Source: Verrucomicrobiales bacterium
GTDB taxonomy: Bacteria > Verrucomicrobiota > Verrucomicrobiia > Methylacidiphilales > JAAUTS01
DNA length: 34,093 nucleotides
Direction of reading: 5' to 3'
Assembly: GCA_031266335.1 (NCBI GenBank)
Contig: JAISBF010000219.1
Location: forward strand, 1-34,093
Every line of letters begins with the position of its first letter. Position 1 is the first letter of the stretch. Below the pieces are notes generated by a model. It had not been told where the DNA came from and made no database searches. It was given only the letters and a program-made list of their open reading frames with translations. The position numbers and the translations under genes are program-made. Of this stretch, positions 1 to 33,923 are shown one piece after another.

Positions 1-118
1 GCGAAGGAGCGAAGGAGCGAAGGAGCGAAGGAGCGAAGGAGCGAAGGAGCGAAGGAGCGAAGGAGCGAAGGAGCGAAGGAGCGAAGGAGCGAAGGAGCGA
101 AGGAGCGAAGGAGCGAAG
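1..118. repeat. Octamer tandem array (GCGAAGGA)n, about 14.75 copies, truncated by the window start
   Basis: Direct reading: gcgaagga repeated without interruption from position 1 to 112, then gcgaag. On the other strand the unit is GCTCCTTC, i.e. GCTCNNNC. Confidence 0.97.
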
Positions 119-586
119 ATTTTACTCGCCCCTCTTTCGCGTTGTCAATTAAAAAGTGCATGGGATGGAAAGTAGCGAGGTTTGAGTTGTTGTCAAACTT
201 TTTTTATATTTTTTTTACAAGGAGTTCATGGAGGACGTGGAGAAAATAATTCCCCTTCACGGCAGGGGAATTGGCGGGCGCGGGAAACGAGGATGGTGAG
301 AGGTATTCCGACGTCAGCGCTTCCACTGCTAACGATGAGGAACCCGTTTTGAAAAAGCCGTCGAGCGCCTGGAACATCTCACCGTCAGCGGCAGGGAAAA
401 GTAATCGCGCACCGTCAGCGTTTTTCCAAGATGCCGTTTTGCGCAATGTTTTCGACAACATACAGCACTTTACTTAAAGATAGTGAGACGACCCGATTAA
501 GTGTGCGGCAAATCGAGTTGAATTCATATAGGGACGAGTTTGTAGATTCTGCTTTTCTTTAAATGCTAATGATGTATATTCAGTGA

Positions 587-5263: not shown

Positions 5264-5415
5264 TTCATTAACGCAAAGGGACAAAGGAGCAAAGAATTTT
5301 TTTTTACAGGGAGATCATGGAGTTCATGAAGGTTTTAAAAAAACAAACTCCATGTTCTCCATGATCTCCCGGTAAAAAAATTCTCCGCGTCTCCGCGCCT
5401 CTGCGTTGAATGTGC
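5264..5415. repeat. Nested intergenic inverted repeat (GCAAAGG-type outer, GGGAGATCATGGAG-type inner)
   Basis: acagggagatcatggagttcatgaagg...ctccatgttctccatgatctcccggt form imperfect complementary arms. Confidence 0.85.
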
Positions 5416-8400: not shown

Positions 8401-8541
8401 GTCGCTCCAGTTGGCGTTGTTACTGAATTTGTTATCCGCCGGCGTCGCGCTCCAGACCCGCGCCTGCGCCTGCCACGTCGCTGACAATGACAGGGCGACG
8501 GTCAGCGCCAATTTCCACAAGGTATATTGGTTAGTTTTCAT
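5419..8541 (-). CDS. Autotransporter-associated beta-strand repeat protein with PEP-CTERM sorting signal
   Basis: 1040 aa; signal peptide; repeats such as VNKVGSGTWALTGSNSYSGSTTISGGVLLV; C-terminus IPEPSTWLLLGTGVALLAFLRRRR. Confidence 0.93.
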   Translation of the reverse strand: MKTNQYTLWKLALTVALSLSATWQAQARVWSATPADNKFSNNANWSDLDGPIWYFRDSSITDLLNDLASAPVIQEINYREANLAYSISGGTLALTSQIRNQMTVSQTIGSTLWLQNNVGINNDTSAGGDIWLTGTVVNYGGDRTLTTNLKGHTLHIGALAVSEGATARMFTLSGTDQVVIGSVTGAGAALNGNGFGGFYNRLASTLTVTGSGSYTGDVTLGQASNTILDYTADDGARLGFGGALNVRSNAALTLHGGGTATIENFSSLTLGWGKDQSGHTDILRDSGSATISISGDLRRAAGTNVWENRATLSISGSNLVYAPSVTTINGGILLHYITINGKDWARVDADTGALVAFDDYVNFFDSTSTTDHAVIDGNATLTGNKTVGTLKITTDAASQSLNLDGRQLSFTATSVSGASNGGAAGIYGAYNGSGMIFAGDHDYTISGGVLVTGWQTEFLLWTGGAGALNIAANINGNIITKSGAGTLILSGSFININSHFSINQGQVVIGGEAAASTFGKAVLNLSGGVLDLNGYDVTNTGGFLNPANGTGVIGLSAGGTITNNAATQSVFAITTGGFGRMLESTLFTGSLQLVLSKGTDTYARLYNANTHTGGTVLRDLDSRLGRGELQIANPLFLGPGQVSMEGNASLYVYDGDWSKFANDLSFTSTNNAIMVGQWRTFTSSGAWSGDGVVHLQAENVNAVQSLTGDLSAFTGVLNFSVGLTGRGGDGGVATLKLAANTDLGGSLVLFDSATNEGKFSTLTVQASAAGTIKLAELSTWSAANSSAQFAANSSATVSAAAAGLVTFEVGGGTFGGQLADGSGQVAINKVGSGTWALTGSNSYSGSTTISGGVLLVDDAGSINSTDRVTVNSGEFRYNSSTALTAATYVEAGGALGGSGIIDSVVYLNDANSTITGGGLGTVGELTFNDWQLWGDFTYVWDILDTMTYDKLTFTDHTYGLSLNGNNYTLTVNNPNTVAVENFVILSGLTSGFDADNWSVTGGYELFLDGTDLVLNTIPEPSTWLLLGTGVALLAFLRRRR

Positions 8542-8569
8542 GATGTTTGCTCCGAGTTTAGTTCCAGTT

Positions 8570-8700
8570 TATTGCCACAAAAAAGCACAGAAAACACAAA
8601 GGGGTTACCAAGAGGACACGGAGGAATTGGAGGGGGGTTTTGAGTTGCCGCAAACCTGCCTCCAATAACTCCATGTTCTCTTTGTAAAAAAATTATCCCT
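8570..8700. repeat. Inverted repeat, ACAAAGAG class
   Basis: ccaagaggacacggaggaattggagg...cctccaataactccatgttctctttgtaaaa; similar to the copy at 23630-23755. Confidence 0.75.
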
Positions 8701-9003
8701 GCCCCGTGCCACTGACGGGCGGACTGTGCCGCAAGGGGAATGAAGAGAGTAAAGCCTTGCCGAGAAATTAACGACTTGGCGTGAGCGCGTGAGCGCGTGA
8801 GCGCGTGAGCGCGTGAGCGCGTGAGCGCGTGAGCGCGTGAGCGCGTTGCTTCGATTCTATGACCTATGTCTATCATCTTCAGCGGGTTACCGGTTTTTCA
8901 CTTCCGCTTAACCACCCATGTTTTCCCGGTGGTCACCGTCAGCTTGCGCCGATAACAATTGCGACGTTACATTAATCGCCGCGTTAAAGCAATGGTTTTC
9001 ATT
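8700..9003 (-). repeat. Conserved ~300-bp element with internal octamer array, copy 1
   Basis: Reverse complement matches the copies at 20430-20725 and 23310-23615: TTGCTTTA..GCGATTAA.GTAACGTCGCA.TTGTT.TCGGCG.AAGCTGACGGTGACCACCG..AAAACATGGGTGGTT...GTGAAAAACCG.TAAC.CGCTGAAGATGA. Confidence 0.93.
8781..8844. repeat. Octamer array (GTGAGCGC)8, i.e. (GCGCTCAC)8 on the minus strand
   Basis: Eight uninterrupted units read directly. Confidence 0.97.
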
Positions 9004-9011
9004 AACTTTTT

Positions 9012-9106
9012 TTGAAGAATTTTTTTACCGGGAGATCATGGAGTTCGTGGAGGTTTTTAAAAAAAGAATCTCCATGTCCTCCATGTTCTCCCTGTAAAAA
9101 ATTCTT
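9012..9106. repeat. Intergenic inverted repeat (GGGAGATCATGGAG class)
   Basis: ttttttaccgggagatcatggagttcgtggagg...ctccatgtcctccatgttctccctgtaaaaaa. Confidence 0.85.
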
Positions 9107-20429: not shown

Positions 20430-20725
20430 CGTGAAAACCCTTGCTTTAGTGTGGCGATTAAGGTAACGTCGCATTTGTTGTCGGCGTAAGCTGATGGTGA
20501 CCACTGAAAAAACATGGGTGGTTTAGCCAAAGTGAAAAACCGATAACTCGCTGAAGATGACCGAGATAGCCCATAGAATCGAAGCATCGCGCTCCAGCGC
20601 TCCAGCGCTCCAGCGCTCCAGCGCTCCAGCGGCATGAGACTTGCCCCGACTTCTTGATTTCCCAGCAGCGTCTCGCTCGCTTCATTCCCCTTACGGCACA
20701 ATCCGCCCGCCAGCGTCAGCGACGG
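20430..20725 (+). repeat. Conserved ~300-bp element with internal octamer array, copy 2
   Basis: gtgaaaacccttgctttagtgtggcgattaaggtaacgtcgcatttgttgtcggcgtaagctgatggtgacc..., nearly identical to 23310-23466. Confidence 0.95.
20591..20630. repeat. Octamer array (GCTCCAGC)5
   Basis: Five uninterrupted units read directly. Confidence 0.97.
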
Positions 20726-23186: not shown

Positions 23187-23306
23187 AAAGCACATTCAAC
23201 GCGGAGGCGCGGAGACGCGGAGAAATTTTTTACAGGGAGAACATGGAGGACATGGAGATTCTTTTTTTAACCTTCATGAACTCCATGATCTCCCTGTAAA
23301 AAATTT
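23187..23306. repeat. Intergenic inverted repeat (GGGAGAACATGGAG class)
   Basis: ttttttacagggagaacatggaggacatggag...cttcatgaactccatgatctccctgtaaaaaa. Confidence 0.85.
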
Positions 23307-23309
23307 TCA

Positions 23310-23615
23310 TGAAAACCATTGCTTTAGTGTGGCGATTAAGGTAACGTCGCATTTGTTGTCGGCGTAAGCTGACGGTGACCACCGAGAAAACATGGGTGGT
23401 TTAGCTGAGGTGAAAAACCGATAACTCGCTGAAGATGATTGACATAAGTCATAAAATTACAGCACCGCGCTCACGCGCTCACGCGCTCACGCGCTCACGC
23501 GCTCACGCGCTCACGCGCTCACGCGCTCACGCGCTCACGCCGACTTCCTGATTTCCCGGCGAAATTTCGCCCATTTCGTTCCCCTTACGGCACAGTCCGC
23601 CCGCCAGCGTCAGCG
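23310..23615 (+). repeat. Conserved ~300-bp element with internal octamer array, copy 3
   Basis: Aligns to copy 2 over its left flank and to copy 1 in reverse complement; right flank ttccccttacggcacagtccgcccgccagcgtcagcg is shared with copy 2. Confidence 0.95.
23467..23540. repeat. Octamer array (GCGCTCAC)9
   Basis: Nine uninterrupted units read directly, then gc. Confidence 0.97.
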
Positions 23616-26014: not shown

Positions 26015-26171
26015 AGCACATTCAACGCAGAGGCGCGGAGACGCGGAGATTTTTTTTTACAGGGAGAACATGGAGTTCATGGAGGTTTTTAAAAAATAAT
26101 CTCAATGTTCTCCATGATCTCCCTGTAAAAAATTCTTTGTTCCTTTGCTCCTTTGTCCCTTTGCGTTAATG
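26015..26171. repeat. Nested intergenic inverted repeat
   Basis: cagggagaacatggagttcatggagg...ctcaatgttctccatgatctccctg, with outer GCAGAGGCGCGGAGACGCGG and CCTTTGCTCCTTTGTCCCTTTGCG blocks. Confidence 0.85.
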
Positions 26172-32198: not shown

Positions 32199-32485
32199 CC
32201 GCGGAGGCGCGGAGACGCGGAGGTTTTTTACAGGGAGTTCATGGAGAACATGAAGGGTTAGCTGCATTAACGCAAAGACGCAAAGGAACAAAGGCGCGAA
32301 GGTTTTTTGAATTTTTTACAAAGAGGACATGGAGTTATTGGAGAAAGGTTAGCTGCAATTAACAGCCTCCTCCAATTCCTCCATGTGCTCTTTGTAAAAA
32401 AATTCTTCGCGCCTTTGTGTCTTTGCGTCTTTGCGTTAATGAAGCTGCGTCTTTGTGTTAATGAAGCTGCGTCTTTGCGTTCATC
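32199..32485. repeat. Nested intergenic inverted repeat region with repeated GTTAATGAAGCTGCGTCTTTG
   Basis: attaacgcaaagacgcaaaggaacaaaggcgcgaagg...cttcgcgcctttgtgtctttgcgtctttgcgttaatgaagctgcg. Confidence 0.88.
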
Positions 32486-33317: not shown

Positions 33318-33569
33318 GTCGCGGGGGAGACTTCCCTTGTCGTGGATAAGGTCTTATCCGTCGCAGATAAGGTCTTATCCGTCGTGGATAAAGTCTTATC
33401 TGTCGCAGATAAGGTCTTATCCGTCGTGGATAAAGCCTTATCCGTCGTGGATAAGGTCTTATCTGTCGCGGGGAAAACCTTCCTTGTCACGAGTGAGCCA
33501 TTCCTTATCGCAAGGAAGAGCTTCCTTGTCGCGGGGAAGGCTTTACCTGTCACGGGGGAGGTGATGATG
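33318..33569. repeat. 21-bp tandem array (about 12 units), consensus GTCGYRGATAAGGTCTTATCC, most units internally palindromic
   Basis: Unit starts at 33318, 33339, 33360, 33381, 33402, 33423, 33444, 33465, 33486, 33507, 33528, 33549: exact 21-bp spacing. Confidence 0.95.
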
Positions 33570-33644
33570 TTGGTCTTCATGTTATGGTTAGCTGGCGCAA
33601 AACGAGGAAAACAACGACCTGCGTCCGGCGTTGTGAATAATGAG

Positions 33645-33820
33645 GGAATTTTTTTAACAGGGAGTTCATGGAGATTATTTTTTTAAACTTTTTTTAACCA
33701 CGGATGGACACCGATGAACACCGATAAAATAAACCAAAAAAATAATCCGTGTTCATCCGTGTCCATCCGTGGTTAAAAAAATAATCTCCACATTCTCCAT
33801 GTTCTCCCTGTAAAAAGATT
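33645..33820. repeat. Hairpin-within-hairpin: ACCACGGATGGACACCGATGAACACCG inner repeat inside a CAGGGAGTTCATGGAG outer repeat
   Basis: Inner arms aaccacggatggacaccgatgaacaccgat / atccgtgttcatccgtgtccatccgtggtt (33696-33775); outer arms cagggagttcatggagattattttttt / ataatctcc...ctccatgttctccctg. Confidence 0.9.
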
Positions 33821-33923
33821 TTCTTCGCTCCTTTTTTGACACTCCACCGGCAGCGCCGCCGTCCCTCGGTGAGAGGGGCGGGCGGCGGCTGATGGTAGGG
33901 GGTGGCACGCATATCGGGTTAAC

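Follow-up and report, generated by a model that had tools for sequence, protein, structure and literature searches.

A candidate leader-peptide switch: an octamer array within a short ORF of a dispersed promoter-leader cassette in the Verrucomicrobiota

Three large PEP-CTERM autotransporter genes on one contig of a verrucomicrobial genome are each preceded by nearly the same block of DNA, and each block holds a perfect tandem array of 8-nt units. What is such an array doing there? The contig (JAISBF010000219.1 of assembly GCA_031266335.1; the whole stretch of 34,093 nucleotides is called the window here) carries the blocks at 8700-9003 on the minus strand and at 20430-20725 and 23310-23615 on the plus strand, just where a preliminary description of this DNA placed them. 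That description was also right about the strong conservation of the left flank (87-88% identity over ~165 bp between copies, E 1.8e-53 and 1.4e-55), about the perfection of the arrays (Table 1), and about their lying some 190-245 bp upstream of the start codon; from array end to gene start we count 237, 187 and 242 nt in copies 1, 2 and 3. What it overlooked is a short ORF of conserved frame around the octamer array. We will argue, giving it a probability of about one half, that the cassette may be a leader-peptide switch of the kind known from pil1 in Streptococcus gallolyticus.

Read from 5' to 3', the cassette opens with a sigma70-like promoter and a leader containing a covarying stem; then come CCGCTGAAG-ATG, a short ORF that holds the octamer array, a stop, and a C/T-rich, G-poor stretch. 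The promoter is predicted from its hexamers, laid out as TTGCnn-N17-TAnnnT, and the 17-nt spacer is kept in 94 of 101 copies. The leader then runs for 12-152 nt from the -10 box to the ATG. The leader type of the three window copies has an outer stem, GUUAUCGG/CCGAUAAC, and an inner hairpin, with 93.6% of cells paired against at most 43% in slid controls; 7 pairs are altered on both sides, and RNAalifold recovers the outer stem independently. The preliminary description had offered a promoter VNTR and a structured 5' leader as possible readings, and both fit, the first through this promoter and the second through this stem. Rfam models at their gathering thresholds yield only a tRNA in the window and no leader family, and there is no clear Shine-Dalgarno sequence ahead of the leader ATG. 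Between promoter and ATG, the loci L010, L019, L021, L066, L071 and L100 (L numbers are fetched loci) carry a second stretch of low complexity, TACCTACTACATGCTATCTACTAACTACC, whose length varies. Hairpins of the octamer RNA were considered as a conserved feature and rejected: the array of copy 2 folds with a z of -4.0, that of copy 3 with a z of -1.25, which is not clearly beyond shuffles.

The preliminary description took the unit to differ by locus. The unit of copy 2 does differ from that of copies 1 and 3, but 88 of 103 arrays are built from GCGCTCAC and 8 from GCGCTCTC, with single variants elsewhere; units may change when a variant unit at the right-hand junction spreads by slippage (L089, L090, L101). 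The window also holds a fourth array, absent from the preliminary description, (GCGAAGGA)14.8 at 1-118, cut by the contig end. It lies in a leader of a second type, type B, which has a different 5' part (TTGACA..TTGACAACGCG..) and the octamers CTTCGCAC, CTTCGCAT or CTTCGCTC. The type-B right flank is of the same kind as that of the first type, type A, so that one 3' module serves two different 5' modules.

Table 1. Coordinates of the leader cassettes, their downstream genes and neighbouring elements (window positions unless a fetched locus is named)
Feature	Position	Strand	Basis or remark
Copy 1, promoter-like -35 TTGCTT, 17 nt, -10 TAACGT	8964-8992	-	sequence; layout common to 94/101 copies
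Copy 1, leader ORF, 112 aa, from conserved ATG	8538-8876	-	outside short-leader frame; reaches PEP-CTERM start codon
Copy 1, octamer array (GCGCTCAC)8.5	8779-8846	-	Tandem Repeats Finder, 100% perfect
Downstream gene 1, PATR repeat + PEP-CTERM, 1040 aa	5419-8541	-	
Copy 2, promoter-like -35 TTGCTT / -10 TAACGT	20441-20469	+	
Copy 2, leader ORF, 26 aa (MTEIAHRIEASRSSAPALQRSSAP...), stop 6 nt past array	20557-20637	+	
Copy 2, octamer array (GCGCTCCA)5.4	20589-20631	+	Tandem Repeats Finder, 100% perfect
Downstream gene 2, PATR repeats + PEP-CTERM, 747 aa	20819-23062	+	
Copy 3, promoter-like -35 TTGCTT / -10 TAACGT	23319-23347	+	
Copy 3, leader stem GTTGTCGG (23355-23362) with CCGATAAC (23418-23425), inner hairpin ACCAC/GTGGT	23355-23425	+	covariation; single-sequence fold z -2.8
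Copy 3, leader ORF, 38 aa (MIDISHKITAPRSRAHALTRSRAH...), stop 11 nt past array	23435-23551	+	
Copy 3, octamer array (GCGCTCAC)9.4	23466-23540	+	Tandem Repeats Finder, 100% perfect
Copy 3, right flank, C/T-rich, G-poor, possible Rho-loading tract	23541-23600	+	composition and fold, all copies
Downstream gene 3, PATR repeats + PEP-CTERM, 742 aa	23783-26011	+	
Type-B leader, ATG at 161-159, array (CTTCGCTC)14.75 off contig end	1-230	-	
Type-B loci	L134, L161, L162, L166, L169, L170, L172, L174; window 1-230		
220-250 aa paralogous families (YIHxTW.., NYLPANE.., SRLIETT../..NPRLQ.GPWSD), repeatedly behind cassette	L195:268-1005, L206:1871-2533, L104:2787-3518, L223:939-1607, L029:1937-2581	-, -, -, +, +	
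21-bp repeats	window 33338-33540; L020, L027, L031, L062, L091, L104, L190, L195, L219, L220		
Intergenic palindromes	5296-5379, 9018-9101, 23220-23309, 26049-26132, 32207-32459, 33640-33823		

The argument turns on the reading frame. The unit is 8 nt long, so every unit gained or lost shifts the frame, and because 8 and 3 have no common factor the array encodes the octapeptide RSRAHALT in all three frames. The ORF has 11 variable codons, then the array, then the stop, and its peptides of 14-50 aa follow the consensus M-x-D/E-L/I-S/G-H-K/R/N-x-x-x-x-(RSRAHALT)n-R-S-x-stop. Our null is that in an untranslated array the unit number n, taken modulo 3, would be random. The ATG lies in whichever frame has the nearest stop past the array in 69 of 91 copies (frames 69:16:6, p 2e-16), and in 46 of 57 when the source genome is taken alone (p 3e-13). 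The alternative frames reach a stop at about +26 or run on for 130-580 nt; copy 1 of the window is in a long-leader frame, copies 2 and 3 in the short-leader frame. Steps of three are plainest in an exact class of copies (CGCGCTCA with the junction [TG][TG]ATGA), where n is 1 once, 4 in 17 copies, 7 in 7 and 10 in 2, with 3, 6, 8 and 9 found once each; n mod 3 is 1 in 27 of these 31 copies (~1e-9, binomial). Further copies of G003 are in the expected frame in 9 of 10 cases (p 4e-4). Copies with a long right flank share an identical frame offset in 53 of 64, despite n ranging from 3 to 15 and a junction of 18-25 nt, and copies with a short right flank fall 7:5:4 with no significant bias.

With one copy per 85%-identity cluster the bias is still significant (p 1e-6), so relatedness does not account for the frame lock at moderate clustering; with one copy per 80%-identity cluster (30 clusters) it weakens to p 0.08, which is not significant. 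Among 54 pairs of nearest relatives with unequal length, the difference is a multiple of 3 in 35 (p 3e-6). The arrays are hypervariable. The differences in repeat number were observed between orthologues of different species, and n varies while the frame is kept: one orthologous locus has 6.25 units against 9.25, and at another, with 5.25 against 12.25, a compensating 1-nt change keeps the frame. From the frame lock we infer that the leader ORF is translated, and on the same counts we conclude that the position of its stop has been under selection.

What follows the stop is unusual in composition. The right flank has an excess of C over G of +0.25 in its first 40 nt, is 42% C, 42% T and 5% G at positions 20-40, and folds no better than shuffled sequence (z ~0), that is, it is unstructured. 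Intrinsic terminators between array and gene were rejected, since the 7 found in 81 copies are at chance level (4.8 expected). In place of an intrinsic terminator, Rho is the likeliest candidate, given the unstructured, C-rich and G-poor tract that follows the stop and the presence of a rho gene; termination within the leader would then be Rho-dependent. A precedent for this part exists in mdtU-mdtJI of Escherichia coli, where premature termination by Rho ahead of the main gene depends on whether a 5' uORF is translated, in response to spermidine (PMC7815308). The cassette has the C-rich, G-poor, unstructured tract after the uORF that is expected of a Rho-dependent uORF attenuator; mdtU-mdtJI differs in having neither a repeat array nor phase variation. 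Three other ideas about this region were rejected. That the right flank is coding in the frame ..YDSCPDSLISPPSFTRFIPHPA.. seemed persuasive on inspection, but codon-position entropy and BLOSUM scores against column shuffles give no signal in any frame. Translational coupling to the downstream start through an ATGA overlap occurs in 23 of 79 copies, about the third expected once the frame is open, which is near chance because downstream genes often begin with ATGA. A programmed +1 frameshift at the leader stop fails because the stop is not always UGA (L124 has TAA) and the copies have no slippery codon in common.

We believe these parts are best compared with pil1 and pil3 of S. gallolyticus, the closest worked-out system in the open-access literature that we searched, with an earlier description elsewhere being possible. 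In that system experiments tie repeat number to expression (PMC3894217): most cells carry an in-frame number (22+3n), which encodes a short leader and keeps expression low, and an out-of-frame number lengthens the leader and raises expression via antitermination. The systems have in common a promoter, a short leader ORF with a perfect SSR of a unit length not divisible by 3, and surface-structure genes downstream. They also share a short in-frame leader as the majority state and longer leaders in the other frames as minorities; the pil1 model predicts one dominant frame with both others as minorities, as observed here. The streptococcal loci are two in number and have a 5-nt unit, GCAGA, and an intrinsic hairpin terminator. 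The cassette, with 8-nt units, occupies at least 60 loci per genome; it lacks an intrinsic terminator, has a C-rich tract in its place, and carries a covarying stem in the 5' leader. By analogy, ribosomes in the default frame would leave directly past the array, the C-rich, G-poor leader would lie untranslated and exposed, and transcription would end early, probably via Rho, with low downstream expression. If slippage added or removed units in any number not divisible by three, the leader peptide would be longer, ribosomes would cover the leader, and the downstream gene would be turned up. That leader length sets expression, that the switch runs this way and that Rho takes part are our inferences, the last drawn from composition.

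The most serious rival, though an unlikely one in our opinion, accepts the leader peptide and denies the switching. The cassette would be a signal-responsive attenuator in which the stop after the array is needed for sensing, the array is a permissive insert, and out-of-frame copies are simply broken. The strong preference for one frame, seen even in n = 1 copies that are unable to slip (L228, L242), would be expected of such a device, and so would the conserved leader stem. A pure sensor, however, needs neither arrays held at 4-15 units nor their variation between orthologues, and the n = 1 copies have no identifiable surface gene after them. Frame does not matter in the alternative modelled on hmw1A, which we consider quite improbable: a graded rheostat in the promoter or 5'UTR, where array length would tune mRNA through leader length or RNA structure. 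In hmw1A and hmw2A of Haemophilus influenzae a heptamer or octamer SSR upstream has a graded, inverse copy-number effect (PMC2651432, PMC8262952). As here, it is placed in the 5' part of the transcript, ~100-210 nt ahead of the genes for large secreted adhesins, but its mechanism is not established, no leader ORF has been described for it, and it occupies one or two loci. The likeness of position (187-242 nt upstream of large surface genes), the perfect SSR and the strong fold of the copy 2 array (z -4.0) all speak for a rheostat. Tuning that ignores the frame nevertheless predicts no steps of three in n.

How widely is the cassette distributed? A genome search with the left flank, as the preliminary description had proposed, gives 41 matches in the 2.77-Mb MAG, and a 15-base core, ACCCGCTGAAGATGA, occurs there ~60 times exactly. 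From loci fetched around left-flank and core matches we catalogued 107 distinct type-A heads. Of these, 63 belong to the source genome, itself that of a termite-gut bacterium, a further 33 come mostly from a related termite-gut MAG, 'Verrucomicrobiales bacterium isolate Gx485_bin111', and other members of the genus supply the rest; these counts, drawn from searches and fetched stretches, are lower bounds. The sample Gx485 is named in one termite-gut paper (PMC11707648). A first screen found octamer arrays in 4 of 5 genomes of the genus and in 0 of 36 others. The genus member G001, which lacks GCGCTCAC, carries arrays of (CGCGCTCG) that follow a head of similar kind (L111, L121). Wider taxonomic spread was rejected, since the head pattern is present in 3 of 291 genomes of the class and all 3 belong to this genus, and exact core matches in other taxa have neither the array nor the surrounding element. 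Among the genomes examined, the cassette is a dispersed promoter-leader element found only in one genus. Many contigs of the source MAG begin or end in an octamer array (C12:1-71, C20:1-116, C39:1-53 and window 1-118), so the assembly falls apart at the arrays. An array exceeding the k-mer causes a MAG assembly to break or collapse, and long arrays are under-represented as a result, but this should leave n mod 3 unbiased.

A same-strand gene lies downstream, at a distance of 130-600 nt, in most copies with enough sequence, and the orientation of the cassette follows that gene where it can be judged. Of ~77 such copies, ~21 precede PEP-CTERM proteins, ~22 precede proteins related to beta-barrel autotransporters (L184: PF03797, E 6e-42) and ~18 precede three families of 220-250 aa, the rest being truncated or ambiguous. 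The proposed association with PEP-CTERM autotransporter genes is therefore real but not exclusive. Tested members of the 220-250 aa families have no Pfam match, and three also have no NCBIfam match. A shared DNA element ahead of PEP-CTERM genes also occurs elsewhere: a sigma-54/PrsR cis-regulatory site precedes such genes in long intergenic regions (PMC1569441). That site is a proteobacterial sigma-54 motif pair with no array or ORF, in contrast to the sigma70-like promoter of the cassette. The fetched loci also have 21-bp repeats, many of them containing palindromes, in the interval that separates the octamer leader from the 220-250 aa genes, and one frame of these repeats reads as heptapeptide repeats (VADKVLS, SPREIRF, KTFRAVS and others). 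Dispersed intergenic palindromes (TTTTTTACAGGGAGAACATGGAG ... CTCCATGTTCTCCCTGTAAAAAA), several of them long hairpins, are possibly bidirectional terminators or a REP-like family.

Two loci of the source genome (L182, L204) and two of Gx485_bin111 (L071, L105) pair their upstream flanks and downstream genes oppositely, so the genes behind two cassettes appear exchanged, as if by recombination at the cassette. Could the cassette then have spread for its own sake, mobile or recombining, with no regulatory role? These exchanges and at least 63 dispersed copies before unrelated genes would agree with that. The promoter spacing, the stem covariation and the frame lock look selected, however, and orientation tracks the downstream gene where judgeable, so we regard this as very improbable. 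The preliminary description's repeat-generating mobile cassette is likewise not demonstrated; dispersal and swapped genes amount to shuffling.

Codon-level tests find no protein-coding signal in the start of the ORF or in the right flank, and unit variants alter the peptide freely (RSSAPALQ, RSRALALS, RLRAYALT). These two observations suggest that the peptide sequence itself is probably not the target of selection. We can hardly credit a family of small-protein genes whose product is the basic repeat peptide and whose downstream gene is merely adjacent, despite its own promoter, ATG and conserved stop and 14-50 aa peptides with the octapeptide RSRAHALT, because there is no codon-level conservation, the peptide changes with the unit, and a same-strand gene mostly lies downstream.

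Returning to the leader-peptide switch, a broader claim can be put forward tentatively, and we hold it with less than even confidence. This genus of termite-gut Verrucomicrobiota may carry a bank of 60-100 independent phase-variable leader-ORF switches per genome, one for each surface or effector-like gene, all from one spread promoter-uORF-octamer cassette, with Rho in place of the hairpin and mostly in the short-leader state. Two pilus loci of one Streptococcus are where leader-peptide phase variation has been dissected (PMC3894217); the cassette would apply that logic in dozens of copies per genome and in another phylum. The signature n = 1, 4, 7, 10 serves as evidence for ORF translation from sequence alone, and the many copies would be natural replicates in which to study the link between repeat number, leader length and expression. 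The arrays also suggest a reason why these MAGs break, and genes behind them would be under-assembled as a result. If the claim is true, cells would differ from one another combinatorially in the proteins they display, and the cassette would show how a gut symbiont diversifies its surface.
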